DNA of 64,000 nt from contig NZ_CP110680.1 in assembly GCF_028583725.1 (NCBI RefSeq), forward strand, positions 3,534,001 through 3,598,000, written 5' to 3'. A program made the translations under genes and the position numbers. The DNA is from Cellulomonas fimi (GTDB lineage Bacteria > Actinomycetota > Actinomycetes > Actinomycetales > Cellulomonadaceae). Within the stretch, counting starts at the first letter, position 1, and every line of letters starts with the position of its first letter. Shown here one piece after another: positions 9,486-30,887 of this stretch. The notes beneath the pieces were generated by a model that saw only the letters and a list, made by a program, of their open reading frames with translations, had not been told where the DNA came from and ran no database searches.

Positions 9486-12400
9486 TCATGGCACGACCGG
9501 GCGCGCCACCAGCTCGCTCCACCGAGCAGTGAGCGGCAGCGTCGTCGTGGTCGCCGACGTGTACACCGACAGGCCGACCCCGCCCGCGGCCTGGAGCGCG
9601 GCCGTGGTGCTCGTGCCCGACAGCGTCCACGCCGCCGGCTCCGGCGAGCCCGAGGCCCACACCTTCGCGCGCAGCGTGGTCGTGCCCGTCCCGGTCACCT
9701 GGAACCGTGCCTGCAGCGTCTGCCCGGCGGCGTACGTGATGCCCGGGACGTTGACCTGCGCGACGGTGACGGTCGTGCCGGCGGAGATCCCGACGATCGA
9801 CGCCCGCACGACACCCGTCGACAGCATCTTGAGCCGCAGCCGGTAGCCGTCGGTCGTGCCCGCGGTCCGGCCCGCGAGCTCGAGGTCGGTGCCCGACCCC
9901 GTCGGCATCACGTCCAGGCTCACCTTGGCCGTCAGGTCCGTGCTGGTCGACGACACCGGCAGGAAGGACGACAGGCGGTACCCGGCGCCGGTGACGCGCA
10001 TCGCGCCCGTGCCGTTCGCGACGGAGAAGTTCGCGGCACCGCCCTGGACGGTCCACGCGCCGCCGGTGTCGGCGGAGCCCCAGCCGCCCGTGAGTGACCG
10101 CGCGAACGGGTCGAGCGCGAACGGCGTGTCGGCGGGCGGTGCCGCCACGGAGACCTCGCGGGTCGTCGTGCCGGTGTCGCCGTCGTCGTCCGTCGTCGTG
10201 AGCGTGATCGTGTACGTGCCGTCCACGGCGTACGTGTGGTTCGCCGTCGCGCCGGTCGCGGTCGCGCCGTCGCCGAAGTCCCACGCGTAGGACGTGATCT
10301 GGCCGTCCGCGTCCGTCGAGGTCGACGCGTCGACCGCGACCGCGAGGTGCGTCGGCGTCGCCGTGAAGGCCGCGACCGGGCCCTGGTTCGGCACCGGGGC
10401 CGCCACCGTGACCTCGCGGGTCGTGGTGCCGGTGTCCCCGCGGTCGTCCGTGACCGTGAGCGTGACGGTGTACGTGCCGGCCGCCGCGTAGGTGTGCGAC
10501 GCGGTCGCGCCCGTGCCCGTCGCGCCGTCGCCGAAGTCCCACGCGTGCGCGGTGAGCGTGCCGTCGGCGTCCGCCGACGCGGTGCCGTCCACCGCGACCG
10601 TGAGGTCGGTCGGCGTCGCCGTGAACGCCGCGACCGGCGCCTGGTTCGGCGCGACGACCGTGACCGTGCGGACCGTCTGCGCGCTCCCGCCACGGTCGTC
10701 CGTGATCGTGAGCGTCACCTCGTAGTCGCCGCCCGCCGCGTACGTGTGCGTCGGGGCCGGCCCGTCACCCGTCGAGCCGTCGCCGAACGTCCACGCGTGC
10801 TGCGTGATCGTCCCGTCGGGGTCGGACGAGGTGCCGGCGTCGAACGCGACCGTGAGGTCCTCGGGCGTCGCCGTGAACGCGGCCGTGGGGAGCTGGTTCG
10901 GCGGGACGACCGTGACGTCGTGCGCCACCTGCGCCGTCGCGCCCTCGTCGTCGGTGACCGTCAGCGTGACCGTGTAGGTGCCGCCCGCGGCGTACGTGTG
11001 GGAGGGCGTCGCGCCCGTCGCGGTCGCACCGTCGCCGAACGACCACGCGTAGCCCGTCACCGTGCCGTCCGAGTCGGTCGACCCGGTCGCGTCGAACGCG
11101 ACCGTGAGGTCCGTCGGCGTCGAGGTGAAGGCCCCGACCGGCACCTGGTTCGGCAGCTGACCCGTCTTGCCGAGCGCGTAGTGGTTGGCCACCGCCTGCG
11201 CGTCGAGCACCGAGGAGTAGACCGCGACCTCGTCGATCGTGCCCGCGAACCACGCCTGCGGGCCCCACGTCGTGTCGCCGAACACCCGCCAGTACCCGTT
11301 GTAGGCCTGCGCGCCCGTCTGCGGGTTGGTGCCCTGGAGCACGCCGTCGACGTAGAGCTTCATGCCGTCCGGGCCCTGCGTGGCGACGAGGTGGTGCCAC
11401 TGGTTGTTGTTGTACGACGCGGACGTCGTGATCGTGTTCGTCACGCCCGTCCAGGTGCCGAACGTCAGGCGCCCGTTCGTCTCCATGTAGACGTGCCGGT
11501 CGTAGCTGCCCGACACCCCGGTGTTCGTGTCGCCGAAGCCGATGAGCTTCCCGCCGTTGCTCGTCGACGTCCTGAACCACAGCTCCTGCGAGTACACCGT
11601 CGGGTTCGACACCTGCTGCGTGCTCGCGACGAGCGTGTTGCTCGACCCCAGCGACCGGACCGCGGTGTTGCTCACGCCCGACAGCGCGCCCGACTGGCTG
11701 CGCAGGAACGTGCCCCGGTAGACGCCCGGTGTGCCGTACGGGCCGGAGTCCGCCGCGGTCGTGCCCGAGCCCTCACCGAGCCGCCAGTACAGCTCGGGAC
11801 CCGCGTCGTAGACGGCCTTGCCGTACGCGTCGGCGGGCGCCGGCGGCCGGGCGACGGTGCGACCCGACAGCGTGTAGTGGTTCTCGACCTGCGCGATCGT
11901 CAGCGGCGCCGGGTAGACGGCGACGTCGTCGATGCTGCCCGCGAGGTAGCCGCTCGTCGGCTGGTTCGGCCAGCCGCCGAGGTTGTCGCCGCCGATCCGC
12001 CAGTAGCCGGCGTACGCCTGGCCCATGGTCGTGTCGGCACGCTGCCCGACGCGCCGCCCGTCGACGTAGAGCTTCATGCCCTCGGCGCCCATCGACGCCA
12101 CGACGTGGTGCCACTGGCCGTCGTTGTACGACGCGGAGCTCGTGAGGGTCCGGACGGAGCCCGGGTAGACGCCGAACGTGATCCTGCCCGAGTTCTCCAT
12201 GTAGACGTGCCGGTCGTAGCTGCCCGACGAGCCCGTCTGCAGGTTGGAGAAGCCGACGATCTTGCCGCCGCGCGTCGTCGTGGTCTTGACCCACGCCTCG
12301 ACCGCGAACGAGTCGGGACCCTGGATCGCGGTGCTGGTCGCGCCCGTCGACGACGCCGTGCCGTCGAACGTCGACGCGGCGTTCACGTCACCGCCGATCG

Positions 12401-14387: not shown

Positions 14388-14430
14388 CACGGCCCCGCCG
14401 TCCCCGCTGGAGGGGGACGACGGGGCCGTG
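14388..14430 (-). terminator. Long hairpin terminator after the second PKD protein gene
   Basis: CACGGCCCCG-C-CGTCCCC at 14388-14405 pairs with GGGGACG-A-CGGGGCCGTG at 14413-14430, with a single internal mismatch and a short loop. It begins 25 bases after the stop codon of the 14455-17985 gene and separates it from the promoter of the 9486-14195 gene. No U-tract is visible. Confidence 0.72.
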
Positions 14431-14454: not shown

Positions 14455-17400
14455 TCAGGCGGCGACGGGCCTCGCCGAGAGCTGGCTCCACCGCGCGGTC
14501 AGCGGCAGGGTCGTCGTGCTCGACGACGTGTACACCGACAGGCCCACCCCGCCGCCGACCTGCAGCGCGGCGGTGGTGCTGGTGCCCGTGAGCGTCCACG
14601 CGGCGGGCTCGGGCGAGCCGGCCGGCCAGACCTTGAGCCGGAGGTTCGTGGTCCCGGTGCCCTCGACCTGGAGCCGCACCGACAGCGTCTGCCCGGCCAC
14701 GTACGTGAGGCCCGGGACGTTGACCTGCGCGACGGTCGTCGTGGCGCCCGCGGACACCCCGATGATCGACGCCCGCAGCACGCCCGTGCTGAGCATCTTG
14801 AGCCGGCCGCGGTAGCCGTCGGTCGTGCCGACCGCGCGACCCACGACCTCGAGGTCCGTCCCGCTGCCCGTCGGTGCGACGTCGAGCGCCACGTCGACCC
14901 GGACGTCGGCGCTCGTCGACGAGACCGGCAGGAACGACGACAGCCGGTACCCCGCGCCGGTGACGCGCATCGCGCCGACCCCGGAGGCGACCGAGAAGTT
15001 CGCCGCGCCGCCCGCGACGCTCCACGCGCCGCCCGTGTCGGCCGTGCCCCAGCCGCCCGCAACGGTCCGCGCGAACGCGTCGGCGGCGAACGGGGCGTCG
15101 GCCGGCGGGGTCGTCACCGTGACGTCGTGCGACGTCTGGGCGGTCGCGCCGTCGTCGTCCGTGACCGTGAGCGTCACCGTGTAGGTGCCGTCCGCGGCGT
15201 ACGCGTGCGACGCGGTCGCGCCCGTCGCCGTCCCGCCGTCACCGAAGCTCCAGGCGCGCTGGGCGATCGTGCCGTCCGGGTCGGACGAGCCGGCCGAGTC
15301 GACCTGCACCGACAGGCCGGCGGTCGTCGCCGTGAACGCCGCGACGGGCGGCTGGTTGGGCGGCGGCGGGGTCACCGTCACGTCGTGCGCGACCTGGGCG
15401 GTGTGGCCGTCGTCGTCCGTCACCGTGAGCGTCACGGTGTACGTGCCACCGGCCGCGTAGGTGTGGGACGCCGTGGCACCGGTGCCCGTGCCGCCGTCGC
15501 CGAAGCTCCACGCGTAGGACGCGATGGTGCCGTCGGGGTCGGCCGACGCGGACCCGTCGACGTTCACCGTGAGGCCGTTCGCGGCGGGGGTGAACGCGGC
15601 GACCGGGGGCTCCTCCGGCGCCTCGCCGGTGCGCCCGAGGGTGTTGTGCGCCGCGACGGTCCCGGCCGCGAGCGCGAACGGGTACACGGCGACCTCGTCG
15701 ATCGCACCGTTGAAGTTGTTCGACGACGGCGTGTTCGGCCAACCGCTGAGGCTGTCGCCGCCGATCCGCCAGAACCCGGTGAAGTTGCGCCCGCTCGGGT
15801 TGTCCGCCCGCGACGCGACCAGCGCACCGTCGACGTACAGCGCCATGCCGGCGCCGCTCATCGTGCCGACGACGTGGTGCCACTGACCGTCGTTGACCGC
15901 CTGCGGCGACCGGACGGTGCGGTTCTGGCCCGGGCTGGCGCCGAACTGCACGCGACCGCCGCTGTCGACGTAGAGCTGCCGGTCGCGCGTGCCGCTCGTG
16001 CCGGTCAGGCTCGTCGAGCTGCCGAAGCCGACGACCCAGCCGCCCTGGTTGGACGTCGTGCGGATCCACGCCTCGACCGACAGGTCGTTCATGTTCTGCT
16101 CGCGCTGCGGCGCCACGACGCGGCTGTTCGTCGTGCCGGCGAACGTGGTCGCGGTCGTCGGGTCGCCGGAGATGGCGCCGGCGGTGCCGCGGGTGAGCGC
16201 GGTCCCGGTCGTGCCGTCGTCCGTTCCCGCCGCGTCGAGCGCGGTCGTGCCGCTCGCCTCGCCGAGGCGCCAGTAGTGCGAGGCGCCGTCGCTCATGACG
16301 GTCTGCGCGTACGGGCTGACCGGTCCGGTGCCGTCGGCGACGACCTGGACCGACGGGCTCGTCACGGTGTTGCCGAACGGGTCGGAGACCCGCACCGCGT
16401 AGGTGTACGTCTGCCCCGGGGTGAGCCCGGTGTCCGTGTACCCCTGCGTGGGCCGCTTCCAGATGACCGACTTCTTCACCTCGTTGGAGACGGGCTGGCC
16501 GTTGCGCAGCACGCGGTACGTGAGGTCCTCGTTGTCGAAGTCGGCGTTCGCCGTCCACGAGACCCGCACCGCGCCCGTGCCGATGCCGCGGGCCGTCGGC
16601 GTGAAGTCGGCGCCCGAGAACCGCGGACCCTGGTCGTTCGGCGCGATGCTCGGCACCGCGAACCGGACGAGCCCCTGCTGGCGGCGGAAGTTCACGTTGA
16701 GGAACTCGCCGCCGTACACGATGTACCGGTCGTCGCCGGTGACGGCCCACGGGCCCTGGTTCTGGCCCGTGTAGGTGCCGGTGTCCAGGTCGGGGTAGAA
16801 GTTCAGCATCTCGGGCGCGTTCGTGCCCTCGAAGTTCGTGTAGCCGAGGTGCTCACGGCCGAGCTTGCGCATCGGCTCCTTGGTGTAGGCGTCCGCGCGG
16901 TAGAACAGCCAATCGTCGTTCTGCGGCGTCCCGCCGACGTTGCCGCAGTAGTGGTGGTGGCTCGCCGCGTAGATGACCGGGCCCTGCGCGTGCACGGCGT
17001 AGGAGTCGCCGTGGCAGTCGGCGATCCACCGGATCGAGCCGGTCTCCCAGTCCGCCGCGAAGACGCCCTCGAGCGTGCCGCCCGAGCGTCCGAACGTGTA
17101 GCCGACGCCGTACATGTTGTCCGCGTCGCCGGCCAGGCCCGTGATCGAGCCCGCCGTGCCGCTGTTGCGGATCTGCGAGGTCGCGGGGAACGGGAGCGGC
17201 GCGCCCGTCACGGAGTCGACGCGGGCCAGCCCGTCGGGCGCGGCGGTGCTGCCGTTGAACGACGTGAAGTTGCCGCCGACGATCACCGTCGACCCGTCGG
17301 GCGAGACGGTGAGGGCGCTCACCGAGCCGTCGTCGACCGTGGGGTTCCACGGCAGGAGCGCGCCGTTCGCGGCGTTGAACGCTGCCAGCCGGGTGCGCGA

Positions 17401-17985
17401 CGAGCTGCCCGCCTGCGTGAAGATGCCGCCCGCGTACACGGTCGTGTTGGTCGCGGCGAGCGCGCGGACCTGGCCGTTCGTGCCCGCGTTGAACGTCGTG
17501 ACGAGCGCGCCGGTCGCGGCGTCGAAGGCCGCGATCCGGTACCGGGTCGTGCCCGCGATGCTCGTGAAGTTGCCGCCGACGTAGATCCGCGAGCCGTCGG
17601 GCGACTTCACGACGGCGCGGACCTGGGCGTTCGGGTTCGGCGCCCAGCCGCCGTCGAGCACGCCGGTCGTGACGTCGAACCGCAGCAGGTTGTTCCGCGT
17701 GACGGTGTTGACGCCCGCGGCGGCGCCCGCCGGTCGCGCGTTCTGGAAGTCGCCGCCCGCGTAGACCTGGTTGCCGACCATCGTCTGCTGCCACACGACG
17801 CCGTTGATCTGCACGGTGGGCAGCGCGTCGGCGGAGACGGTCGGCGGGAGCCCCGGGGGCGGCGACGTGTCGGCCTGCGCCGGCGCGGCGCCGACGACCA
17901 GCCCGACGGCGACCGTCGCCGCAGCGGTGAGCAGGGCCCAGGCACGAGCGACCGGCGAGCGGTCGGTGACAGGACGCAGAGACAT
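14455..17985 (-). CDS. Secreted beta-propeller / LamG / PKD surface protein (paralogue 2)
   Basis: A 1176-residue exported protein and the tandem paralogue of the 9486-14195 product. A signal peptide (about 1-40) is followed by the same propeller (VYAGGDFQNARP, IYVGGNFTSIAG, VIVGGNFTSFNG), an Fn3-like segment, one LamG domain (about 554-785) and two PKD domains (about 788-958). The GGWG module closes the protein (about 959-1176, starting DAFARTVAGGWG). The first 550 residues align with the paralogue almost without length change; the difference is one LamG and two PKD copies. The start ATG at 17985 follows GGGGTG. It has its own promoter-like element and terminator, so it is probably a single-gene unit. 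Function is inferred only from architecture: binding of surface polysaccharide or matrix. Confidence 0.87.
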   Translation of the reverse strand: MSLRPVTDRSPVARAWALLTAAATVAVGLVVGAAPAQADTSPPPGLPPTVSADALPTVQINGVVWQQTMVGNQVYAGGDFQNARPAGAAAGVNTVTRNNLLRFDVTTGVLDGGWAPNPNAQVRAVVKSPDGSRIYVGGNFTSIAGTTRYRIAAFDAATGALVTTFNAGTNGQVRALAATNTTVYAGGIFTQAGSSSRTRLAAFNAANGALLPWNPTVDDGSVSALTVSPDGSTVIVGGNFTSFNGSTAAPDGLARVDSVTGAPLPFPATSQIRNSGTAGSITGLAGDADNMYGVGYTFGRSGGTLEGVFAADWETGSIRWIADCHGDSYAVHAQGPVIYAASHHHYCGNVGGTPQNDDWLFYRADAYTKEPMRKLGREHLGYTNFEGTNAPEMLNFYPDLDTGTYTGQNQGPWAVTGDDRYIVYGGEFLNVNFRRQQGLVRFAVPSIAPNDQGPRFSGADFTPTARGIGTGAVRVSWTANADFDNEDLTYRVLRNGQPVSNEVKKSVIWKRPTQGYTDTGLTPGQTYTYAVRVSDPFGNTVTSPSVQVVADGTGPVSPYAQTVMSDGASHYWRLGEASGTTALDAAGTDDGTTGTALTRGTAGAISGDPTTATTFAGTTNSRVVAPQREQNMNDLSVEAWIRTTSNQGGWVVGFGSSTSLTGTSGTRDRQLYVDSGGRVQFGASPGQNRTVRSPQAVNDGQWHHVVGTMSGAGMALYVDGALVASRADNPSGRNFTGFWRIGGDSLSGWPNTPSSNNFNGAIDEVAVYPFALAAGTVAAHNTLGRTGEAPEEPPVAAFTPAANGLTVNVDGSASADPDGTIASYAWSFGDGGTGTGATASHTYAAGGTYTVTLTVTDDDGHTAQVAHDVTVTPPPPNQPPVAAFTATTAGLSVQVDSAGSSDPDGTIAQRAWSFGDGGTATGATASHAYAADGTYTVTLTVTDDDGATAQTSHDVTVTTPPADAPFAADAFARTVAGGWGTADTGGAWSVAGGAANFSVASGVGAMRVTGAGYRLSSFLPVSSTSADVRVDVALDVAPTGSGTDLEVVGRAVGTTDGYRGRLKMLSTGVLRASIIGVSAGATTTVAQVNVPGLTYVAGQTLSVRLQVEGTGTTNLRLKVWPAGSPEPAAWTLTGTSTTAALQVGGGVGLSVYTSSSTTTLPLTARWSQLSARPVAA

Positions 17986-18196: not shown

Positions 18197-18877
18197 TCAG
18201 GCGGCGGGGCCGGCGCCCTCGAAGAGGACCGTCGTCACGGTCGGGTCGTAGCTCACGGTCACCTGGAGACGGTCGCGCTGGTCGGCCGGCACGTTGAAGA
18301 CGTAGACGCCCGTCACCGACGCGCCCGGCGCGACGGACCCGGAGAACGGCTTGCCGCCCGGGCCGGTGAGGGGCTCGGCGGGAGCGAGGTCCTGCCCGCC
18401 GTAGACGTTGACGACCGCGCTGTCGAGCGGGACCGCCGCGGACGTGCCGTTCGTGAGCCGCACCGTCACGCGCACCGCCGGACCGGCGACCTCGCCGGGG
18501 CCCTGCGCCTCGCCCGCGACGGACTCGACCGTCGTGAGCTCCGCGGTGACGCCGGAGTCGAACGCAGCGGGCTGGTCGAGCGCCACCGCGTCCTTCGTCA
18601 CGGGCGTGTAGGGCGCGGCGGGGTCGGCGTCGTCCGTGGCGCCACCGCCCGGCTCACCGGGAGCGGGGGCCGTGGGCGTCTCCACGGGCGACGGCTCGTC
18701 GCGCACGTCCTCGCCCGCGGAGCGCGACGGCGACGCGGACGACGTGGGGCCGGCGTCCGCCGAGCCGGACTGCGCGACGGCCGCCCAGACGACGCCACCG
18801 AGGACGAGCACGACCAGGGCGGCGACGGCGACGACCGCCCAGCGCGGCACGGGCCGGCGCGCGGGCGCCTCGCTCAC
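18197..18877 (-). CDS. Membrane-anchored extracytoplasmic protein of unknown function
   Basis: A 226-residue protein with one N-terminal membrane helix (about residues 12-34, WAVVAVAALVVLVLGGVVWA) and a Ser/Pro/Thr/Glu-rich linker (about 38-90). The C-terminal beta-rich domain (about 93-226) looks like DUF4352-type Ig-like domains (AVRVTVRLTNGTSAAVPLDS, ASVTGVYVFNVPADQRD). The GTG start at 18877 overlaps the stop of the CDP-alcohol phosphatidyltransferase gene (GTGA), so it is the last gene of a coupled three-gene operon. No enzymatic motif is seen. I infer a surface-exposed accessory role in the EPS system, without closer assignment. Confidence 0.75.
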   Translation of the reverse strand: MSEAPARRPVPRWAVVAVAALVVLVLGGVVWAAVAQSGSADAGPTSSASPSRSAGEDVRDEPSPVETPTAPAPGEPGGGATDDADPAAPYTPVTKDAVALDQPAAFDSGVTAELTTVESVAGEAQGPGEVAGPAVRVTVRLTNGTSAAVPLDSAVVNVYGGQDLAPAEPLTGPGGKPFSGSVAPGASVTGVYVFNVPADQRDRLQVTVSYDPTVTTVLFEGAGPAA

Positions 18878-19674
18878 GCCTCACCGCCCCGGGCGTCACC
18901 GGCGGGACGGCGCAGCGTGCGCATCTCCGCGAACCACGAGCGCAGCGCGAGCACGAGGAAGCCGGCGGTCGCGAGCGCGAGCAGCGCGTACACGACCGCG
19001 AAGCCCGTCGTCCACCCGTACAGCAGGAACGACAGGCACAGCACGCCGTAGTCGGTCGGTGCCACGACCAGCGAGCGCAGCACCGACGGCCGGTCCCCGC
19101 CCGCGGTCGCCCGCATCGTCACGCCCGCCTGCCGCCGGAGCTGGTCGTTGAGGATCATCGCGAAGAACAGCACCGACCACACCGCGGAGTACGCGAGCGG
19201 GACGAGCAGCCACGTGTCGGGCACGACGTCCGCGCGGTACAGACCGACGAGCAGCGCCAGGTGCAGGCTCGAGACCTTGACGGCGTCGATGATGTGGTCG
19301 AGCCACTCCCCCGCGATGCTGCCGCCGCCGCGCAGCCGCGCGACCTGGCCGTCGGCCGAGTCGAACGCGTACCCGACGAGCAGGAGGACCGACACCAGCA
19401 CGCCCGTCCACCACGCGACGGGCGCGAGGGCGAGCACGCCGATCGCGGCGAACGTCCAGACCGCGCTGATCGCGGTGACCTGGTTGGGCGTGAGCCCCGC
19501 GCGGTAGGCCCACGCGGCCAGCACGCGGCCGGCGCGGCGGTTGACGAACCGCGAGTAGGCGGGGGCCCCACGGGCGCCCTTCTGGACGGAGCCGAGACGG
19601 CCGAGCGTCTGTGCGAACGTCTCCGAGACCGAGGTGGTCACCGGCTCCTCCTGGTGCAGCGGCGTGGTCGTCAT
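18874..19674 (-). CDS. CDP-alcohol phosphatidyltransferase family membrane enzyme
   Basis: A 266-residue membrane enzyme with about six helices, transferring a phosphoalcohol from a CDP-linked donor. The family signature DxxDGxxAR-x8-GxxxDxxxD is complete: D105, D108, G109, A112-R113, G122, D126, D130. The ATG at 19674 overlaps the upstream glycosyltransferase stop (ATGA). A GTG at 19641 has a better AGGAGG ribosome site five bases upstream and would give 255 residues, so either start is possible. Most relatives make phospholipids, but here it sits between a glycosyltransferase and a surface protein gene in the EPS locus. Together with the TagD-like gene at 909-1361 this suggests transfer of an alditol phosphate to glycolipid or polymer. 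That substrate is an inference. Confidence 0.82.
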   Translation of the reverse strand: MTTTPLHQEEPVTTSVSETFAQTLGRLGSVQKGARGAPAYSRFVNRRAGRVLAAWAYRAGLTPNQVTAISAVWTFAAIGVLALAPVAWWTGVLVSVLLLVGYAFDSADGQVARLRGGGSIAGEWLDHIIDAVKVSSLHLALLVGLYRADVVPDTWLLVPLAYSAVWSVLFFAMILNDQLRRQAGVTMRATAGGDRPSVLRSLVVAPTDYGVLCLSFLLYGWTTGFAVVYALLALATAGFLVLALRSWFAEMRTLRRPAGDARGGEA

Positions 19675-20918: not shown

Positions 20919-21088
20919 CTGGGTCCTTCCGTCGTCCCGCACGCGGGGGTGGGCCCGGGTCGGTGGGCGGGACGTCGAGCATCCCGCGCCGCACGCACGG
21001 CGGGTACCGCCGTCCGGGTCGTCCGTCTGTGTCCGTTCCGACCGTGGCCTGGTCGGTTGCGCGCCGCGGTGCGGTCGGCGGCCGTGCG

Positions 21089-22621
21089 TCAGTACGCCCC
21101 GGCGCCGGTGACCACGGCGCGGAACGTCTTCCACAGGATCATGAGGTCCATCGTCACGGACCAGTTGTCGACGTAGCGCAGGTCGAGCCGGATCGACTCG
21201 TCCCACGGCAGGTCCGCGCGGCCGCTGACCTGCCACAGCCCCGTGATGCCGGGCTTGACGCGCAGCCGCTGGTGCACGGCGTCGTGGTAGCCGAGCACCT
21301 CCTCGCGCAGCGGCGGCCGCGGGCCGACCAGCGACATGTCACCGCGGACGACGTTGTAGAACTGCGGCAGCTCGTCGAGCGAGAACCGGCGCAGCACGCG
21401 CCCGACGGGCGTGATCCGCGGGTCGCGCGCCATCTTGAACATGAGCCCGTCGCGGTCGCTGCTGTCGAGCAGCTCGGCGCGGCGCCGGTCGGCGTCGCGG
21501 TACATGCTGCGCAGCTTCCAGATCGTGAACTCGCGCCCGTCGACGCCGACCCGCGTCTGCGTGTAGAAGGCGCGACCGGGCGACGTCAGCCGCACGGCGA
21601 CGGCGGCGACGAGGATGACCGGTGCGACGAGCGTGAGGGCGACGAGCCCGAGGACGCGGTCCATCACGGCCTTGGCGACGAGCCGGCGACGCGGCGGCTC
21701 GATCTCGAGGCGCAGCAGGGACAGGCCCGCGGTCGGGTGCACGCTCACGCGCTCCTGCGCGACCTCGACGAGGCCGGGCGCGACGACGAGCTCGGCGCCC
21801 GCGCGACGCAGGGCCCACGACAGCCGGCGCAGCGCCTGGCCGCTCAGCGCGTTGCCCGCGACGACGACGACGGACACCGCGTAGTCCGAGACGATCTGCG
21901 GGATGTCCGCGAGCGCGCCGAGCGTCGGGACCGGCACCTCGGTCTCGGGCTCGACGTCCGACAGGCACGTCCCGATGACGAGGTAGCCGTGGTACGGCGC
22001 GAGACTGAGGTCGTCGATGACGTCGGCGACCGCGGCGGTGTCACCGACCACGATGGTCCGCATCATCGCCTGGCCGCGGTTGCGTCGTGCGTGCAGGAAC
22101 CGGCGGTGCAGGTAGCGGGCGGCGCACGCGGCGGCCGCGGCGACGGGCACGCCGACGACGACGACCTCGCGCGGGACCGGGAGCGTCGTGAGGTAGGCGA
22201 TGGCCATGACGAGCGCCGCGAGCAGCACGGACGAGCGGAGCAGCACCTGGAACTCGCCGGGACCGTCGCCCATGTTGTGCCGCTCGTAGCCGCGCATCGC
22301 CGCGACGGTGACCGGCAGCGCCACGGCGCAGACCGCACCGAGGACCGCGGCGGACGACCAGGCGGACCCGCCGAGCACCGCGGCGGCGGTCACACCCGCC
22401 CCGGCGGCGGCGGCGTCGATCGCGACGGTCACGCGCTGGTACCCGGTGGCGCTGTGGACCCACGGGAGCGCGCCGAGCGCGTCCTCCCCGGAGTTGTGCT
22501 CGGTCGCCCGGCGCACGAAGGGCTCCGGGGACGCCCACGAGCGTCGGGGGAACTTGGCGGGGCGGCGCCGCTCGAGCCACGCGTCGGTCCGTTCGGACCC
22601 GTGCCCGGCTGTCAGCGTCAT
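21089..22621 (-). CDS. Undecaprenyl-phosphate sugar phosphotransferase (EPS-initiating enzyme)
   Basis: A 510-residue membrane enzyme that starts polymer synthesis by moving a sugar 1-phosphate to undecaprenyl phosphate. The N-terminal half has four hydrophobic helices and a Rossmann-like central region (TIVVGDTAAVADVIDDL near residue 190). The C-terminal catalytic domain of the bacterial sugar transferase (PNPT/WbaP-WcaJ) family is clear: KLRSMYRDAD, RRFSLDELPQFYNVVRGDMS, LVGPRPPL, KPGITGLWQVSGR and DLRYVDNWS. The ATG at 22621 is chosen; a GTG two codons upstream (22627) is equally possible, both after GAGGGGGG. It is transcribed alone or with the upstream glycosyltransferase 160 bases away. 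The first sugar is typically glucose or galactose in this family. Confidence 0.9.
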   Translation of the reverse strand: MTLTAGHGSERTDAWLERRRPAKFPRRSWASPEPFVRRATEHNSGEDALGALPWVHSATGYQRVTVAIDAAAAGAGVTAAAVLGGSAWSSAAVLGAVCAVALPVTVAAMRGYERHNMGDGPGEFQVLLRSSVLLAALVMAIAYLTTLPVPREVVVVGVPVAAAAACAARYLHRRFLHARRNRGQAMMRTIVVGDTAAVADVIDDLSLAPYHGYLVIGTCLSDVEPETEVPVPTLGALADIPQIVSDYAVSVVVVAGNALSGQALRRLSWALRRAGAELVVAPGLVEVAQERVSVHPTAGLSLLRLEIEPPRRRLVAKAVMDRVLGLVALTLVAPVILVAAVAVRLTSPGRAFYTQTRVGVDGREFTIWKLRSMYRDADRRRAELLDSSDRDGLMFKMARDPRITPVGRVLRRFSLDELPQFYNVVRGDMSLVGPRPPLREEVLGYHDAVHQRLRVKPGITGLWQVSGRADLPWDESIRLDLRYVDNWSVTMDLMILWKTFRAVVTGAGAY

Positions 22622-22782
22622 GAACACCCACCCCCCTCGTGCGAGAACTGTGGATGAACGTATTACGGGGGGTATGTCGGATTCATCCGCCTCGGCCGCT
22701 TTTCACCCGTGCGCCCCGGTGTGCGGTGACTCACACCCGTTCGGGTCACGTCGCCCGACCGGACCAGCGGCGGCCGCCCAGG
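22622..22782. promoter_or_regulatory. Intergenic region upstream of the initiating transferase with TTTTCACCC
   Basis: This 161-base gap is AT-rich for the window and carries TTTTCACCC at 22700-22708 (plus-strand orientation). It is the same 9-mer found before other transcription units of the locus. No gene or hairpin terminator was recognised in it. Confidence 0.4.
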
Positions 22783-23895
22783 TCAGCGCGCGCGCAGCAG
22801 CCAGGCGTCCGCGGCGAGGCGCCCGTCGACGTCGGGCAGGTCGCCCACGACCGACGCGGGCGACCGGCGGGCTGCGAGGAGCCCCACGAGCGCGTCCGCG
22901 ACCGCGGGCGCCGGGGCGTCGGGCTCGACGACCGCGTGCCCGTGCGCACCGAGCCACGCCGCGAGGCCCGTCTCGGTCGTCGCGAGCACCGCGCAGCCGT
23001 GCGCGAGCCCCTCCACGACCGGGAGGCCGACCTGCTCGCGCCACGTGCGCGTCCGCTGCGACAGGAGGACCGCGACCGCCGCCCGGCGCTGGTGCGCGTG
23101 GACCTCCGCGCGCGGCGGGTCGACGACGACCGTGACCTCCGGCCGGTCGGCGGCGAACGCGTGCACCTCGTCCACGAGGGGGCCCTTGCCGACCAGCGTG
23201 AGCCGCGCGCCGGGGTGCGCCGCGACGACCGCGGGCCACGCCGCGAGCAGCTCGCGCACGCCCTTGCGCTCCTCGAACGCCCCCACGAACAGCACCTCGT
23301 CGGCGTCCTTCGCGTCGAGCGGGCCGCACCCGCACGCCGTGGGCAGCGCCGGCAGCAGGACGTGCTCGGCGCGCCGCAGCCTCGGCACGAGCGCGCCGTA
23401 GAGCTCCTGCGCGGCCGGTGTGCCGAAGACGACCCGGTCGACCCGCCCGGCCACGCGCGCGATCAGCCGGGCGTCGAGCCACCGCCGTACCCGCCCCGCC
23501 GCACCCGGACGCGCGGGCGGCCGGAACGGGTCGTCGTTCGCGATCGCGTACGTCACGACGAGCGCGCGGGGTCGCCGCCGCACGCGCCGCGACAGGTCGA
23601 CGGCCGCGAGCGCGAGCGCCGACCGGCGCAGGCTCGACACCATGAGCGGCTCGTTGACCTCGAGCTCACGGACGTCGGACCGCGCCAGCACCCACGCGGC
23701 GCGGGCGGGACCGGCCTCGACCAGGTCCAGGCCCCGGGCCAGCCCGGAGTCGAAGTCGTAGCGCCGGCTCCGGTAGACGATCGACGCGGGCGCGAGCTCG
23801 TGCGCGCGCTCCAGGTGGGCGGTCCGGAGCGTCTCGTAGAGCCGGACCCGGGGCAGCGCGGTGCGGCCGGCGCCTCCTGCGCTCGCTGTCGTCAC
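22783..23895 (-). CDS. Glycosyltransferase, GT4-like
   Basis: A 370-residue GT-B type enzyme. The donor domain shows EVLFVGAFEERKGVRELLAAW, then ARLTLVGKGPLVDEV, and LPVVEGLAHGCAVLATTETG, which supplies the conserved E of the EX7E motif. The N-terminal acceptor domain is poorly conserved. The start is a GTG at 23895 with GAGGAG upstream. It is divergent from the family 2 glycosyltransferase at 24011. The catalytic sugar is unknown; it is one of seven glycosyltransferases in the locus. Confidence 0.8.
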   Translation of the reverse strand: MTTASAGGAGRTALPRVRLYETLRTAHLERAHELAPASIVYRSRRYDFDSGLARGLDLVEAGPARAAWVLARSDVRELEVNEPLMVSSLRRSALALAAVDLSRRVRRRPRALVVTYAIANDDPFRPPARPGAAGRVRRWLDARLIARVAGRVDRVVFGTPAAQELYGALVPRLRRAEHVLLPALPTACGCGPLDAKDADEVLFVGAFEERKGVRELLAAWPAVVAAHPGARLTLVGKGPLVDEVHAFAADRPEVTVVVDPPRAEVHAHQRRAAVAVLLSQRTRTWREQVGLPVVEGLAHGCAVLATTETGLAAWLGAHGHAVVEPDAPAPAVADALVGLLAARRSPASVVGDLPDVDGRLAADAWLLRAR

Positions 23896-24004: not shown

Positions 24005-24010
24005 TCGACC

Positions 24011-24940
24011 GTGCTCGGGATCGTCGTCGTGAGCTTCGGCTCCGCCTCGCTGCTGCGCGCGAACCTCGCCGACGTCGACGTCGCCGCCCTGCGCCGACCG
24101 GCCGCGGTGGTGGTCGTCGACAACTTCAAGGGTCCGCGCGAGCGCTCCGACGTGCGCGCCGTCGCCGCCGAGCAGGGGTGGGAGCTGGTCGAGAACGCGA
24201 CGAACGCCGGGTTCGGTGCCGCGGTCGACGCCGGGGTCGCGCGCGCCGCGGCCCTGGGGTGCACGGCCGTCGTCGTGGTGAACCCCGACGCCCGCGTCCC
24301 CGCCGACGTCCTCGACGCGCTCGCCGACGCCGTCACCGCGTCGCCGCGGACGCTGGTCTCGCCGCGCGTCGAGCGCCCGGACGGTCGCGCGTGGTTCACG
24401 GGTGGTGCGCTGGACGTGGCCGGTGCACGGACGCGCAACGTCGAGGCGCCGGGGACGCCGCAGCGGACGGGCTGGCTGTCGGGCGCGTGCCTCGCGGCGG
24501 ACGTCGGCGAGTGGACCCGCGTGGGCGGGTTCGACGACGACTACTTCCTCTACTGGGAGGACGTCGACCTCTCGACGCGGTGGACCGCCGCGGGCGGCAC
24601 GCTCCAGGTGCGGCAGGACCTCGTCGTCGTGCACGACGTCGGGGGCACGCAGGAGACCGCCGGGTCGCGGGCGAAGTCGCCGACGTACTACCGCTACAAC
24701 TGTCGCAACCGCCTGGTGTTCGCGGCGAAGCACCTGCCGGCCGCGGACGTGCGCCGCTGGCTGTGGCGGACGCCGTCGTACGCGTGGCAGGTCCTGCTGC
24801 GCGGCGGGCGCCGTCAGCTGCTGCGGCCGGTGCGACCGGTGGGGGCGGTGCTGCGCGGCTCGGCGGAGGGCGTCGGCTGGGCGCTGCGCGCGCTGCTGCG
24901 GCCCGCGCCGCGGCCGGACCGGACGGAGGTGACCGCGTGA
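24011..24940 (+). CDS. Family 2 glycosyltransferase (rhamnosyltransferase-like)
   Basis: A 309-residue GT-A enzyme beginning LGIVVVSFGSASLL. It shows AVVVVDNFKGP, the NxGFG signature ENATNAGFGAAVDAGV, and VVVVNPDARVP, which contributes the DXD-like metal site. GWLSGACLAA and GGFDDDYFLYWEDVDLSTR follow, the latter carrying the WEDVD acceptor motif typical of rhamnosyl/galactofuranosyl family 2 transferases. The GTG at 24011 has no Shine-Dalgarno sequence but a TAGCGT -10 just upstream, so the mRNA is probably leaderless. Its stop overlaps the next start (GTGA), coupling it to the following glycosyltransferase. Confidence 0.84.
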   Translation: MLGIVVVSFGSASLLRANLADVDVAALRRPAAVVVVDNFKGPRERSDVRAVAAEQGWELVENATNAGFGAAVDAGVARAAALGCTAVVVVNPDARVPADVLDALADAVTASPRTLVSPRVERPDGRAWFTGGALDVAGARTRNVEAPGTPQRTGWLSGACLAADVGEWTRVGGFDDDYFLYWEDVDLSTRWTAAGGTLQVRQDLVVVHDVGGTQETAGSRAKSPTYYRYNCRNRLVFAAKHLPAADVRRWLWRTPSYAWQVLLRGGRRQLLRPVRPVGAVLRGSAEGVGWALRALLRPAPRPDRTEVTA

Positions 24941-26037
24941 CGCGGGTCGGGATCGACGCGCACGTGCTCGACGGCAAGTTCCAGGGGTCGCGCACGTGGG
25001 TGCTGGAGACGCTGCGGCGGGCGCCGCTGCTCGCCGCCGACCTGACGTTCGTCGTCTACTCGGGCGACCCGGCGCGCACGGCCGCCCTGCTGGGCGACGT
25101 GCCCGTGGAGCACCGTCGGCTCCCGCCGGGCGGGCCGGTCGGGCGCAACCTGAGGTTCTGGCCGCGCGCCGTGCGGCAGGACGGGCTCGACGTGCTCGTG
25201 ACGCAGTACTTCAGCCCGCCGCGGTTCGCGCGCCGCCAGCTGGTGGTCGTGCACGACGTGCTGTTCGAGACGCACCCCGAGTTCTTCGGCCGCGGCACAC
25301 GTTGGCGCAACAAGCTGCTCGTCGGCTGGTCGGCCCGCCGCGCGGGCACGGTCGCGACGGTGTCGGAGTACTCGCGCGCGCAGATCGCTCGTGTCTACGG
25401 CCGTCGCGCCGACGAGATCGTGCTCGTGCACAACGGCGTCGACCCCGATCCCCCGACGGGCGGTGCCCTGCCGGCGCAGGTGCCGGCCGGCACCCGGTAC
25501 GCGCTCATGGTCGGGCGGCTCGAGCCGCGCAAGAACCTCGCGCTCGCGCTCGACGCGTTCGCGCGGGTCGAGGACCCTGACGTGCGACTGGTCGTCGTCG
25601 GGCGGGACGACTTCGAGGACCGCGAGACGCTCGCCCGTCTCGCGGCGGAGCCGCGCGCCGTCCAGCTGAGCGACGTCGCGCCGGACGCGCTGTGGGAGCT
25701 GTACCGCCACGCGACGGTCTTCGTGTTCCCGAGCCGCGGCGAGGGCTGGGGGATCCCGTTGCTCGAGGCGCTCGCCGCGGGCACGCCGGTCGTGGCGTCG
25801 GACGCGACGGCGATCCCGGAGGCCGGTGGCCCGGCGTGCTCCTACGTGGACGTCGCCGCGCCCGACGCGGCGGACCGGTGGGCGGGGCTGCTCGCGGACG
25901 CGTTCGCGGGTCGCCTGCCGTTCGACGCCGACGCCGCGCGCGCGCACGTCGCCGCGTTCGGCTGGGACCGGTCGGCGCAGGAGCTCGTCACCGCGCTGCG
26001 CCGGACCGCGGGCGTGCGGGAGACCGCCGGCCGCTGA
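24937..26037 (+). CDS. Glycosyltransferase, GT4 (mannosyltransferase-like)
   Basis: A 366-residue GT-B enzyme with a well-preserved GT4 C-terminal domain: YALMVGRLEPRKNLALALDA, DVAPDALWELYRHATVFVFP and SRGEGWGIPLLEALAAGTPV (the G-x-G/EX7E region), ending in SDATAIPEAGG. The N-terminal part includes LVVVHDVLFETHPEFF and TVATVSEYSRAQIARVYG, both common in mannosyl-type GT4 enzymes. The GTG at 24937 overlaps the preceding stop, and GGAGG at 24925-24929 provides the ribosome site. Sugar specificity is not proven. Confidence 0.84.
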   Translation: MTRVGIDAHVLDGKFQGSRTWVLETLRRAPLLAADLTFVVYSGDPARTAALLGDVPVEHRRLPPGGPVGRNLRFWPRAVRQDGLDVLVTQYFSPPRFARRQLVVVHDVLFETHPEFFGRGTRWRNKLLVGWSARRAGTVATVSEYSRAQIARVYGRRADEIVLVHNGVDPDPPTGGALPAQVPAGTRYALMVGRLEPRKNLALALDAFARVEDPDVRLVVVGRDDFEDRETLARLAAEPRAVQLSDVAPDALWELYRHATVFVFPSRGEGWGIPLLEALAAGTPVVASDATAIPEAGGPACSYVDVAAPDAADRWAGLLADAFAGRLPFDADAARAHVAAFGWDRSAQELVTALRRTAGVRETAGR

Positions 26038-26656: not shown

Positions 26657-28282
26657 ATGTCTTCCGCACGCCTGCACGTCTCCGCGCCAGTCCGCCGCAC
26701 CGCCCTCGCGGTGCTCGCCGGCGCACTCTCGGTCGGCATCGTCGGCCTCGGGGCTCCCGCGTCCGCCACGACGGCGGACTACACGAGCAGCGCCGAGTCG
26801 CTCGCCGCGAACACGGCGACCCCGACGACGGTCGCCGTCGACGCGTTCGGCCGCACCGTGTCGGGCGGGTGGGGCACCGCCGTCACCGGCGGGGCGTGGA
26901 GCACCGCCGGGGGCGAGGCGAACGACTACGCCGTCGCGAACGGCATCGCGAGCATGCAGGTCCGCAAGGCCGGCTGGCAGCTGGGCACCTCGCTCCCGAC
27001 CGTGAAGTCGAGCGACACCGACCTCCGGGCGACGGTCAGCCTCGACAAGACGCCGGTCGGTGGCAGCGTCGACGCCGACGTCGTCGGCCGGTTCGTGAAC
27101 GCGACGTCGGGCTACCGCCTCCGCGTCAAGATGCTCGCCGACGGCAAGGTGCGCACGTCGCTGATCAGCGTGAACGGTTCCACGACGACCACCCTGGCGT
27201 CCCAGACGCCCCTGGGTCTGACCGGCGGCGCCGGCAAGCAGCTCGAGGTCCGCCTCGTCGCCACCGGCACCTCCCCGACGAAGCTCCAGGCGAAGATCTG
27301 GGCCGCGGGCACCGCCGAGCCCGCAGACTGGCAGGTCGCCGCGAGCGACAGCACCGCCGCCCTCCAGACGGCCGGCGGCATCGCGTTCGGCGGCTACACC
27401 GGTCCGTCCGTCACGAACGCCCCGATCTCGGTCCGCGTTGCCAACGTGCGCGCCACGTCGACCGAGGTGGCAGCCCCCGCGCCCGTCACCCCCGGCGTGG
27501 TCGGCACCTACGTGCCCGACGCCACCACCACGGGCGTGCCGAACGGGACCAGGCTCACGGTCCACCAGGGCGACCTGACGATCACCACCCCGAACGCGGT
27601 CATCGACGGCCTCGACGTCCGCGGCTTCGTCAAGGTGGCGGCGCCGAACGTCACGATCAAGAACTCGATCATCCGCGGCGCGGCGACCTCGAAGCAGACC
27701 GCGCTGATCACCAGCGCGTCCACCACGTCGTCCGTCACGGTCGTCGACTCCGAGCTCTACAACTCCGTGCCCGGCCCCTGGGTCGACGGTGTGCGCGGCT
27801 ACAACTTCAAGCTCCAGCGCGTGAACCTGCACGACGTGATCGACATGGCGCACATCTACGGCGACAACGTCACCATCGAGGCGTCCTACCTGCACGACAA
27901 CCTGCACTACGAGGTCGACCCGGCCCAGAACAACACCCCGAGCCACGACGACAGCATCCAGATCCAGAAGGGCAACAACATCCGGATCGTCGGCAACAAC
28001 ATCTCGGGCGCGTTCAACACGGGCATCCAGTTCACGCAGGACCAGGGCATCGTCTCGAACGTGACCGTCGACAAGAACTACCTCGACGGCGGCGGCTGCA
28101 CCGTGAACCTCGCCGAGAAGGGCAGGGGCCCGTTCCAGGGCATCACGGTCAAGGACAACAAGTTCGGCCGCACCACGAAGGTCTACAACTGCGCGATCAT
28201 CTCGCCGACCACCACGGTCGTCGCGAACTCGAACAACTACTTCACGGACGGCGCCGTCGCCACCGTCCGCAAGGGCAGCTGA
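26657..28282 (+). CDS. Secreted right-handed beta-helix protein with N-terminal GGWG module
   Basis: A 541-residue exported protein. A signal peptide covers about residues 1-37 (ending SATTADY). A module at about 59-271 starting DAFGRTVSGGWG is homologous to the C-terminal modules of the two PKD proteins, with shared GYRLRVKML, AKIWAAGTAEPADW and STAALQTAGG. After a short Pro/Ala linker a parallel beta-helix occupies about 285-541, with rungs such as APNVTIKNSIIRG, NVTIEASYLHDN, NNIRIVGNNISG and GIQFTQDQGIVSNVTV. An acidic pair in SHDDSIQIQKG may be catalytic or metal-binding, as in beta-helix lyases and hydrolases. The ATG at 26657 follows GAGGAG. A role in binding or trimming the locus polysaccharide is likely but unproven. 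Confidence 0.85.
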   Translation: MSSARLHVSAPVRRTALAVLAGALSVGIVGLGAPASATTADYTSSAESLAANTATPTTVAVDAFGRTVSGGWGTAVTGGAWSTAGGEANDYAVANGIASMQVRKAGWQLGTSLPTVKSSDTDLRATVSLDKTPVGGSVDADVVGRFVNATSGYRLRVKMLADGKVRTSLISVNGSTTTTLASQTPLGLTGGAGKQLEVRLVATGTSPTKLQAKIWAAGTAEPADWQVAASDSTAALQTAGGIAFGGYTGPSVTNAPISVRVANVRATSTEVAAPAPVTPGVVGTYVPDATTTGVPNGTRLTVHQGDLTITTPNAVIDGLDVRGFVKVAAPNVTIKNSIIRGAATSKQTALITSASTTSSVTVVDSELYNSVPGPWVDGVRGYNFKLQRVNLHDVIDMAHIYGDNVTIEASYLHDNLHYEVDPAQNNTPSHDDSIQIQKGNNIRIVGNNISGAFNTGIQFTQDQGIVSNVTVDKNYLDGGGCTVNLAEKGRGPFQGITVKDNKFGRTTKVYNCAIISPTTTVVANSNNYFTDGAVATVRKGS

Positions 28283-28336
28283 CCAGCCCTTCCGCACCAC
28301 GGGCGCGCCGGACCGACCGGTCCCCCGCGCCCACGC

Positions 28337-28381
28337 ACGGACGGAGCACGTCCCGGACACCCCGGGGCGGGCTCCGTCCGT
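28337..28381 (+). terminator. Hairpin terminator after the first beta-helix gene
   Basis: ACGGACGGAGC (28337-28347) pairs with GCTCCGTCCGT (28371-28381), an 11-bp perfect stem with a 23-base interior that is itself GC-rich. It starts 54 bases after the stop codon at 28282. Confidence 0.55.
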
Positions 28382-28450
28382 CGTGGCTCACGGCGGGCGG
28401 GTGAAGACGTCCCACATGCCGAGATCCGTTGCCCCGCGGTCCCGACGCAG

Positions 28451-28527
28451 GTCACGAACAGGTCACGGCCCGGACGAGGCGTGTCCGAGACGTCGTGATT
28501 CCGCCGAATGGGTGTTTCTCCTATAGT
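28451..28527 (+). promoter_or_regulatory. Promoter region of the second beta-helix gene: GTCAC direct repeat and -10
   Basis: Two GTCAC pentamers (28451-28455 and 28462-28466) lie exactly 11 bases apart, the same GTnAC-N6-GTnAC arrangement seen before both muralytic genes at 55561 and 56944. A -10-like TATAGT follows at 28522-28527. The start codon lies about 155 bases downstream. The repeat fits an activator site upstream of the promoter. Confidence 0.45.
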
Positions 28528-28682
28528 CGGCGTGCGCGGCGAGCCAGGGCCACGTACGCGGCGAAGTCGCAGGCCCGGGCTCCTCGCGGGACCGGCAGGA
28601 CCCTCCACGGACGGGTGCTCCACCCGTGCAGGACCTGTCGGATCGCCGCTCGACGCCCTGGCCCCCACCCTGGAGACCGCCC

Positions 28683-30887
28683 GTGCGAGGACGACACAGC
28701 GAGACGCAGCACCCGCCGACCCACCGGGCGGCCCGTCCACGGACGACCGCACCGAGCCGACGCCTCGTCACCACCGTCGCGTCCGCGGCCGCCCTCGCCG
28801 TCGCCCTCGTCGTCGCGATCATCGCCCCGGCGGAGTCCGCACCGATCGGCGTCTACCGCCCCGTCGCACCGACCCGTGTGCTGTCGGGGACGACGCTGGC
28901 CCCCGGCGGCACCGTCACGGTCACGCTCCCGGCGGTCCCGGCCGGCGCCACGTCCGCGACCCTCCAGGTCACCGGGGCGCGCACGACCGCGACCACCACG
29001 CGCATCTCCGTGTGCCCGGGCAGCGCCGTCACGGACGCGTGCACCGCGTCGCCCGCGCTCGTCGTCACCGCCGAGGAGCCGGCGTCCGCGACGGTCACCG
29101 TGCCCGTCAGCGCCGGACAGCCCACCGTCACGCTGCAGGCCACCGCCGACACCCGGGTCTTCGCCGACCTGCACGGCTTCGGCGTCGACGCCTCGAAGGG
29201 CTCGGCCGCCGAGGACTCCCTCTACGTCCCGGTCGACCCGCACCGCGTGCTCGAGACGAGCGTCTCCGGGCGCGGCACCACCGCGCTGACCCTCCCCGAG
29301 GCGCCCCGCGGCGCCACCGCCGTCGCGCTGCGGCTCACCTCGACCGCCAGCACCGAGACCTCGTACGTCGCCGTGTGCCCCGACGGCCAGACCACCGCGA
29401 CGTGCGCCGCGACCTCCGTGCTCAACCCGATCCCCGAGCGCGCCCGGCAGGCGTCGCTCGTCGTGCGGCTCGGCGCCGGCGGCACGCTCCAGCTGTTCAA
29501 CCAGCAGGGCGACCACACCGTCGCGATCGACGTCGACGGGTGGTACGTCGCCCGCGGGGTCAGCAGCACCGGCGGCAACCTGCAGACGCTCGAGGAGCCC
29601 GACACGCTCGCGGACAAGGTCGTGAAGTCGGGCGCCAGCGCGACGCTCACGCTCGACGACGTCCCCGCGAACGCCACCGCGGTCCAGGTCCGGCTCACCG
29701 CGAAGGGCGCCTGGCGTCCCACCGAGCTCAGCGCGTGCCCCGGCACTGCCGCGTCGCAGGACTGCCGCGAGACGACCTTCCTCGTCGCGTCGCCCGACGC
29801 ACCGGCCCGCAACCAGGCACTCGTCCCGCTCGGCGGTGCGGCGCGCGACACCATCACGCTGTCGTCGAGCGACGCGAGCGTCCGCGTGACCCCCGAGGTC
29901 GTCGGCTACGTCGTCGGCCCCGGCGGCGTCACGGTCCCGCCGCCCACGTCGACACGGACCCCCACGCCCACCGTCACGCCGACGCCCACCCCGACGCCGA
30001 CGCCGACCCCCACCCCGACGCCGACCGCGACGTCGACCCCGAAGCCGACGGCGGCGCCCACGGCCACCGCGACTCCCCAGCCGCAGACGACGGCCGCACC
30101 GGGCAGCGTCAAGCCGGGCGCGTCCAACACGGGGGTGCCCGCTGGGACGAGGCTCACCGTGCACGAGGGCGACCTCACCGTCACCACCCCCGGTGCGGTG
30201 GTCGACTCGCTCGACATCCGCGGGTTCGTCAAGATCGCGGCGCCCAACGTCACGATCAAGAACTCGATCATCCGCGGCTACGCGACGACCATCCAGCGCG
30301 CGCTCGTCACCAACAACACCAGCGGCGCGAGCGTGCTGATCCAGGACAGCGAGCTGTACGCGCAGTCGCCGTCGGCCCACATCGACGGCGTCCGCGGGTC
30401 CAACATCACCGTGCGCCGCAGCAACATCCACGACGTCATCGACGTGTTCCACCTCACCGGCGGCAACGTCACGATCGAGTCGTCGTGGCTGCACGACAAC
30501 CTGCACTACGAGAAGGACCCGCTGCAGAACAACACCCCGAGCCACGACGACACCGTGCAGATCCAGACCGGGTCGAACATCACGATCGTCGGCAACACCA
30601 TCGAGGACGCGAACAACAGCGGCATCCAGTTCACGCAGGACCAGGGTGTCGTCTCGAACGTCACGATCTCGAAGAACTGGGCCGGCGGCGGCGGGTGCAC
30701 CATCAACTTCGCCGAGAAGGGCAAGGGCCCGTTCCAGGGCGTCGTCATCACGGACAACGTCTTCAGCCGCGACCAGCGCGTCGCGAACTGCGCGATCATC
30801 GCGCCCTCGACGACGAGCAAGGTGCTGACCGTCGCCCGCAACACCTGGACCGACGGCAGCGCGGTGAGCGTCTCGCGCGGCGACTGA
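28683..30887 (+). CDS. Secreted right-handed beta-helix protein with triple N-terminal beta repeats
   Basis: A 734-residue exported protein. An N-terminal membrane-type signal lies at about residues 26-52. Three repeats of about 120 residues follow (about 55-175, 181-292 and 299-415), with recurring PTRVL/PHRVL, VTLQAT/LQLFNQ and VDGWY/VVGYV endings. They resemble the extracellular repeat domains of actinobacterial wall-associated enzymes. A Pro-Thr repeat linker (about 420-476) leads to a beta-helix (about 483-734) homologous to that of the 26657-28282 product, with APNVTIKNSIIRGY, LHDNLHYEKDP and SHDDTVQIQ. The GTG at 28683 is chosen because GGAG stands seven bases upstream; an in-frame GTG at 28626 would add 19 residues. 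It is probably a surface polysaccharide-binding or -cleaving protein. Confidence 0.82.
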   Translation: MRGRHSETQHPPTHRAARPRTTAPSRRLVTTVASAAALAVALVVAIIAPAESAPIGVYRPVAPTRVLSGTTLAPGGTVTVTLPAVPAGATSATLQVTGARTTATTTRISVCPGSAVTDACTASPALVVTAEEPASATVTVPVSAGQPTVTLQATADTRVFADLHGFGVDASKGSAAEDSLYVPVDPHRVLETSVSGRGTTALTLPEAPRGATAVALRLTSTASTETSYVAVCPDGQTTATCAATSVLNPIPERARQASLVVRLGAGGTLQLFNQQGDHTVAIDVDGWYVARGVSSTGGNLQTLEEPDTLADKVVKSGASATLTLDDVPANATAVQVRLTAKGAWRPTELSACPGTAASQDCRETTFLVASPDAPARNQALVPLGGAARDTITLSSSDASVRVTPEVVGYVVGPGGVTVPPPTSTRTPTPTVTPTPTPTPTPTPTPTPTATSTPKPTAAPTATATPQPQTTAAPGSVKPGASNTGVPAGTRLTVHEGDLTVTTPGAVVDSLDIRGFVKIAAPNVTIKNSIIRGYATTIQRALVTNNTSGASVLIQDSELYAQSPSAHIDGVRGSNITVRRSNIHDVIDVFHLTGGNVTIESSWLHDNLHYEKDPLQNNTPSHDDTVQIQTGSNITIVGNTIEDANNSGIQFTQDQGVVSNVTISKNWAGGGGCTINFAEKGKGPFQGVVITDNVFSRDQRVANCAIIAPSTTSKVLTVARNTWTDGSAVSVSRGD
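29940..30110 (+). repeat. Pro-Thr codon repeat (spacer between wall repeats and beta-helix)
   Basis: A low-complexity run built from CCSACS-type hexanucleotides encodes alternating Pro-Thr residues. It separates the repeat region from the beta-helix. Such tracts change length readily by slippage. Confidence 0.75.

Follow-up and report, generated by a model that had tools for sequence, protein, structure and literature searches.

A module-sharing set of secreted proteins in a Cellulomonas fimi exopolysaccharide locus that probably binds and trims the polymer made there

Results

The window analysed here, 64,000 nucleotides of the soil actinobacterium Cellulomonas fimi (contig NZ_CP110680.1, positions 3,534,001 to 3,598,000; assembly GCF_028583725.1), holds a Wzx/Wzy-type exopolysaccharide (EPS) locus that also encodes a set of putative secreted matrix proteins. 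We assign the locus to this type because an initiating sugar transferase, Wzz, Wzx, a Wzy_C polymerase, glycosyltransferases, a CDP-alcohol phosphotransferase and a cytidylyltransferase surround the genes of four proteins, here called A to D (Table 1), all of which would be secreted judging by eye from their signal-like N-termini. The same parts adjoin EPS genes in many related bacteria, and the four proteins therefore probably bind and trim their own slime.

The original prediction, made from the letters of the window, had described a family of four proteins that share modules with changing partners, and it placed the coordinates and motifs of the four open reading frames (ORFs) correctly. 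One module, which we call GGWG, ends A and B and opens C (BLASTP: A–C 46% identity over 210 residues, E = 1e-49; B–C 49% over 208 residues, E = 4e-50), and a beta-helix is common to C and D (63% over 260 residues, E = 2e-114); E-values near 1e-49 and of 2e-114 rule out chance for both. Because BLASTP among the four proteins finds no GGWG module in D, one module sits on three proteins and another on two. The stretch of A and B that holds PKD domains and GGWG is 73% identical over 386 residues (BLASTP), and their GGWG modules alone are 79% identical. The best named database matches are Cellulomonas proteins.

In Pfam, A and B match LamG, PKD, fn3-like and propeller (Rax2, DUF5122) domains, with four and five blade-like motif copies, respectively, in the propeller. 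The ORF of A opens at 14390, and by inspection we placed its start at the Met at 14195, which precedes the signal-like stretch. A PDB sequence search weakly matched the LamG region to an S-layer-domain chain, 4qvs (E = 5e-4). The Pfam Beta_helix model matched D and fell just under its cut-off in C. The three repeats of D, each of about 120 residues with a Cys pair spaced nine residues apart, are mutually 25–31% identical (z 9–12 over shuffles). They had been called wall-type; the repeats are real, but they match no Pfam family at E ≤ 0.1, no PDB chain at E ≤ 10 and no known wall-binding family. Attachment to the surface, also proposed earlier, is likewise unsupported, as no LPXTG-like sorting motif was seen in A, B, C or D.

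Table 1. Genes and protein modules of the window (pLDDT, predicted local distance difference test)
Feature	Position	Strand	Basis or remark
Cytidylyltransferase-like protein (PF01467)	909–1361	-	Pfam; recurs in related loci
Wzz chain-length domain and ParA/AAA-type ATPase domain	1573–3513	+	Putatively of tyrosine-kinase type
Wzy/O-antigen-ligase-type polymerase (Wzy_C)	3260–4852	+	Pfam; true start probably later in frame
Wzx-type flippase (Polysacc_synt)	7046–8449	-	Pfam
GT2 glycosyltransferase	8407–9483	-	
Protein A: signal-peptide-like N-terminus, propeller-like domain, fn3, 2 LamG, 4 PKD, C-terminal GGWG	9486–14195	-	ORF and Pfam
GGWG module of A, 211 residues, CBM66-like ConA-type fold	9489–10121	-	Model pLDDT 96.3; Foldseek, VIA-align
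Protein B: architecture as A, with 1 LamG and 2 PKD	14455–17985	-	ORF and Pfam
GGWG module of B	14461–15090	-	Sequence comparison
Propeller-like N-terminal domain of B (survey query)	16723–17871	-	Rax2/DUF5122 beta-propeller Pfam matches; VYxGGxF-type repeats
DUF4352-like protein	18197–18877	-	Below Pfam cut-off; recurs in related loci
CDP-alcohol phosphotransferase family protein	18874–19674	-	Recurs in related loci
GT4 glycosyltransferase with DUF1972	19671–21236	-	
EPS initiating sugar transferase (Bac_transf, PF02397)	21089–22627	-	Pfam, 220 bits
Three more glycosyltransferases	22783–23895; 24011–24940; about 24937–26037	-; +; +	
Protein C: signal-like N-terminus, GGWG (about 26792–27457), right-handed beta-helix (about 27506–28279)	26657–28282	+	Model pLDDT 90.6
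Protein D: three repeats of about 120 residues (about 28851–29933), Pro/Thr linker, beta-helix (about 30102–30881)	28626–30887	+	

The predicted model of the GGWG module has a fold of the carbohydrate-binding-module (CBM) type, a ConA-type beta-sandwich of CBM66 shape (Foldseek, VIA-align). Pfam and NCBIfam place no curated family on GGWG in the four proteins. Among PDB chains, a profile of 33 modules retrieved none of CBM66 at E ≤ 10, so that GGWG shares the fold shape of CBM66 as a model but has no sequence match to that family. CBM66 modules bind terminal fructosides or the side chains of xanthan. The nearest cases are a Bacillus subtilis module in the PDB and the xanthan-binding CsCBM66 of Cohnella; a CBM66 can bind a bacterial EPS, namely lyase-treated xanthan (PMC11002231).

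Of six GGWG matches in the C. fimi genome, A, B and C account for three. The remainder lie outside the locus, two of them carried by a single PKD protein at 1.22 Mb and the third by a GH88-type protein at 0.77 Mb. The PKD protein (1.220–1.222 Mb) has the order GGWG-PKD-GGWG, and to the eye alone its N-terminal part resembles a metallophosphoesterase; Pfam gave PKD domains and weak matches on the examined piece. The sole Pfam match over any GGWG stretch, GH115_C, falls in this protein and lies under its cut-off. Several genomes of the genus have similar frames of about 870–900 residues that hold two GGWG copies and do not lie near PF02397, and the module at the end of the GH88-type protein (0.768 Mb) is divergent. 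GGWG of C (residues 53–266) also matches a PHROGs phage 'phosphodiesterase' family (E = 6e-17), which suggests that some phage proteins may carry the module too.

For the beta-helix, the closest folds among the 50 matches listed for the predicted model include polysaccharide-cleaving enzymes: GH87 alpha-1,3-glucanases, and the Dettilon phage tailspike, match at 11–16% identity, with no sequence match in the PDB. Those 50 include no alginate epimerase, which excludes nothing. Curated matches of the helix are limited to the generic Beta_helix/NosD models. Across 16 helix sequences, H399, H413, H417, D421, H430, D431, D432, Q435, Q461, D462, N474, N484 and K488 never vary, and H392 is kept in 15. 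In a wider set of 44 rows, H413, D421, H430, D432, Q435 and Q461 are still invariant and H417, D431, N474 and N484 nearly so, with H399, D462 and K488 below 90%. Because H392, H413, Q435, Q461 and N484 are spaced 21–26 residues apart, about one coil, they would align on one face of the helix. Series and spacing together favour a substrate-binding or catalytic groove. HDD (430–432) could be set beside the Asp pair of GH87/GH28 enzymes, or DP...HDD beside alginate C5-epimerases; we claim neither.

We then surveyed 60 Cellulomonas genomes, C. fimi included, using the initiating transferase PF02397 (present in 59) as the anchor and counting a row as linked when it lay within 35 kb of PF02397 on the same contig. 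In all linkage counts related genomes enter as separate rows, which are hence not independent events. GGWG gave 115 rows, some of them fragments, in 31 genomes; PF02397 shares the contig with 85 of these rows, and 74 are linked, against 3.4 expected from uniform placement. This is not the random spread, with no link to EPS loci, that the original prediction had named as speaking against itself. A linked copy occurs in 26 of the 31 genomes, and in the other five all copies are on contigs without PF02397. The helix (56 rows at E ≤ 1e-20 in 32 genomes) and the propeller-like domain (51 rows at E ≤ 1e-30 in 33 genomes) are linked wherever this could be scored, in 48 of 48 and 41 of 41 rows on PF02397 contigs; the remaining 8 and 10 rows are on contigs without it. 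By comparison, among 150 rows listed for the control family CBM_2, 71 are on PF02397 contigs and 3 of these are linked. The tie of helix, GGWG and the A/B propeller-like domain to EPS loci thus goes far beyond chance.

Propeller and GGWG occur in almost the same genomes (30 with both, 3 with the propeller alone, 1 with GGWG alone and 26 with neither), and co-presence with the helix is weaker. Three genomes (G029, G031 and G047) have propeller proteins near PF02397 and no GGWG match anywhere, so the propeller keeps its EPS link without GGWG. Among the strongest 45 of the 56 helix rows (the 11 weakest excluded), with fusion judged by equal open-frame length, the frame carries one GGWG in 12, two in 5 and none in 28; some of the remaining rows, for example in loci L099, L102 and L103, carry D-type repeats. 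This fusion pattern is the one that an enzyme with exchangeable targeting parts would be predicted to leave.

Beyond the genus, we scored the best 12 (GGWG) or 7 (propeller) first-look candidates per genome in 246 genomes of the class. GGWG occurs in 20 of them, C. fimi included. The other 19 genomes hold 46 rows, 31 on PF02397 contigs and 20 within 35 kb, the latter in 9 genomes; for the 27 rows with E < 1e-40 the counts are 20 and 17, the latter from 9 of 11 genomes. PF02397 is imperfect as the sole anchor, as one strong match without linkage (G163) shows: its GGWG, propeller and LamG domains lie amid homologues of Wzz, glycosyltransferase, CDP-alcohol and polymerase genes, an EPS locus with no PF02397 nearby. 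The propeller domain occurs in 55 of the 246 genomes, again with C. fimi, and of 106 rows outside the C. fimi genome 61 are on PF02397 contigs, with 43 of these inside the 35-kb limit (13 of 17 at E < 1e-80, 10 of 11 at 1e-30 to 1e-50 and 20 of 33 at 1e-15 to 1e-30). Given these counts, and weaker GGWG matches that are mostly unlinked, the propeller family, more than GGWG, is the class-wide EPS companion.

A scan of genome contigs, with flanks of at most 10 kb, found 56 helix loci in Cellulomonas, Cryobacterium, Salinibacterium, Flavimobilis, Actinotalea and a few others. By our count, an A/B-type protein of at least 400 bits stands beside the helix in 20 of these loci, 16 of them in Cryobacterium, where two such proteins (L048 and L058) carry propeller, fn3-like, LamG and PKD domains and a GGWG-like end in the order found in A and B. 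Recurrent neighbours in related loci are a cytidylyltransferase, a CDP-alcohol transferase, a DUF4352-like protein and glycosyltransferases.

Discussion

We consider it likely, though by no means assured, that A and B bind, and C and D cut or modify, the polysaccharide of their own locus as secreted matrix proteins. A and B would be large secreted adhesins with a propeller-like head, fn3/LamG/PKD spacers and a CBM66-like lectin tail (GGWG), and, with several binding domains each, they could cross-link polymer chains or anchor the polymer on cells. In C and D, a right-handed beta-helix with an invariant His/Asp/Gln series is fused to different targeting parts, GGWG in C and the triple repeats in D. 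These two would most likely cut or epimerise the same polymer, as a putative lyase, hydrolase or epimerase, and could thereby set chain length or release cells. The earlier idea of interchangeable modules acting on the polymer of the locus survives in part: modules are swapped among partners, and helix, GGWG and propeller-like domain are tied to EPS loci, but GGWG is not exclusive to such loci.

Several observations weigh against this assignment. Of the 115 GGWG rows in the genus, 41 are unlinked (11 lie more than 35 kb from PF02397 and 30 have none on their contig), and in the class the weaker rows (19 of 46, E above 1e-40) are rarely linked, with 3 within 35 kb. The parts do not always travel together: this helix is missing from 8 of the 31 genomes with GGWG, and GGWG from 9 of the 32 with the helix. 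Of the 56 scanned helix loci, 21 have no other gene of the window in their flanks save matches to the modules or to Wzz at about 50 bits (10 with only the Wzz match, 8 with the helix alone and 3 on short contigs with module matches alone); many of these bare loci are Cryobacterium copies, and several are additional copies in genomes that also hold a linked one. The propeller call comes from Pfam and repeat motifs, and GGWG and the helix have no sequence relative in the PDB, where matches are at chance level or missing. One family, CBM_2, served as the control. Finally, GGWG occurs on proteins outside EPS loci and of many kinds, and may be a general CBM.

The last point leads to the strongest alternative, that GGWG serves actinobacterial secreted proteins as a general-purpose carbohydrate-binding module, its presence at an EPS locus being incidental. 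In the C. fimi genome the GH88-type protein and the other PKD protein, with its two copies, both lie far from the locus, and proteins matched by GGWG in the database bear a wide range of further Pfam domains, such as PF04185, PF00149 and PF00150, which we take to be phosphoesterase, metallophosphoesterase and cellulase. We nevertheless regard this alternative as unlikely, given the excess of linked GGWG rows in the genus, which CBM_2 does not share, and the near coincidence of GGWG genomes with propeller genomes. Less likely still is a cell-surface architecture, an S-layer-like or wall-bound scaffold in which the helix would be a non-catalytic structural rod. Surface proteins often contain PKD, fn3 and LamG domains, beta-helices can be inert, and the LamG region has its weak S-layer match; yet none of the four proteins has an LPXTG-like motif, a bare rod would not need a dense invariant His/Asp/Gln series, and the nearest helix folds include polysaccharide-cleaving enzymes. 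That the four are catabolic enzymes of a plant-polysaccharide degrader, beside the EPS locus by happenstance, seems very improbable: Cellulomonas is cellulolytic, folds like those of GH87 and CBM66 typify degradative enzymes and CBM_2 reaches 35 matches per genome, but every helix row on a PF02397 contig of the genus is linked and A/B-type proteins adjoin the helix mostly in another genus, Cryobacterium.

Binding and trimming of the locus's own polymer has a precedent. Bap1 and RbmC of Vibrio cholerae are secreted modular biofilm adhesins with lectin-type domains and a propeller that binds Vibrio polysaccharide (VPS) directly, and a crystal structure of Bap1 exists (PMC10102183). A and B, encoded within an EPS locus, similarly pair lectin folds with a propeller-like domain that has its own genomic tie to EPS (41 of 51 genus rows within 35 kb of PF02397). 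They differ in carrying LamG, PKD and a CBM66-like module where the Vibrio proteins have beta-prism lectins, and in belonging to a Gram-positive host of another phylum. The propeller of the Vibrio adhesins has eight blades; for A and B, the Pfam propeller matches and a count of four and five blade-like motifs bear on this point. No Bap1 chain is among 18 PDB matches at E ≤ 1 (phmmer, B residues 34–788), the presence of such a chain in the searched copy being unchecked. The rbm cluster encodes RbmB, a lyase that cuts VPS, the cell's own EPS, and is predicted to contain a beta-helix (PMC11637428). The C/D helix, as a predicted model, is likewise a parallel beta-helix encoded in an EPS cluster, and C and D differ by their extra modules; this likeness is one of description. 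By analogy, then, A to D may work like Bap1/RbmC and RbmB, and we claim no homology. The earlier statement that no named system has this combination is too strong for the mode of working, as the Vibrio vps/rbm cluster follows a similar plan.

An EPS locus with embedded matrix proteins is a known kind of system; this one comes with two domain families, GGWG and the helix, that match no curated family beyond generic Beta_helix/NosD. In the literature searched on Cellulomonas or actinobacterial exopolysaccharide, judged by titles and the starts of abstracts, we found no published description of such an EPS-linked protein set. A wider reading, which we offer tentatively and hold to be somewhat doubtful, is that actinomycetes share an undescribed EPS system encoding its own matrix kit: a propeller-LamG-PKD-lectin adhesin family and a beta-helix EPS-processing enzyme family, with the swappable CBM66-like GGWG as a polymer address tag and partners that change between species as the polymer changes. 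Such a system would independently parallel the Vibrio vps/rbm cluster in Gram-positive bacteria and would add a new CBM family as well as a new family of polysaccharide lyases, hydrolases or epimerases. A few Gram-negative models are known to have matrix proteins that act on a bacterium's own EPS by binding and trimming it. If the proposal is true, many actinobacterial proteins annotated only as 'PKD domain-containing' or 'right-handed parallel beta-helix' would acquire both a function and a substrate, namely the polymer made by the neighbouring genes, and two carbohydrate-active families that are still unclassified would become testable.

The remaining genes of the window add some detail. A peptidyl-tRNA hydrolase (pth) and a ribosomal TL5/L25-type protein form the right border of the EPS locus, and a frame at 60–1376 (+) was rejected as an opposite-strand shadow of the cytidylyltransferase gene. 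Several related EPS loci contain both the cytidylyltransferase-like gene and the CDP-alcohol phosphotransferase gene, and this joint recurrence hints at an alditol-phosphate group on the polymer. The DUF4352-like protein stays adjacent to the propeller protein in many loci.
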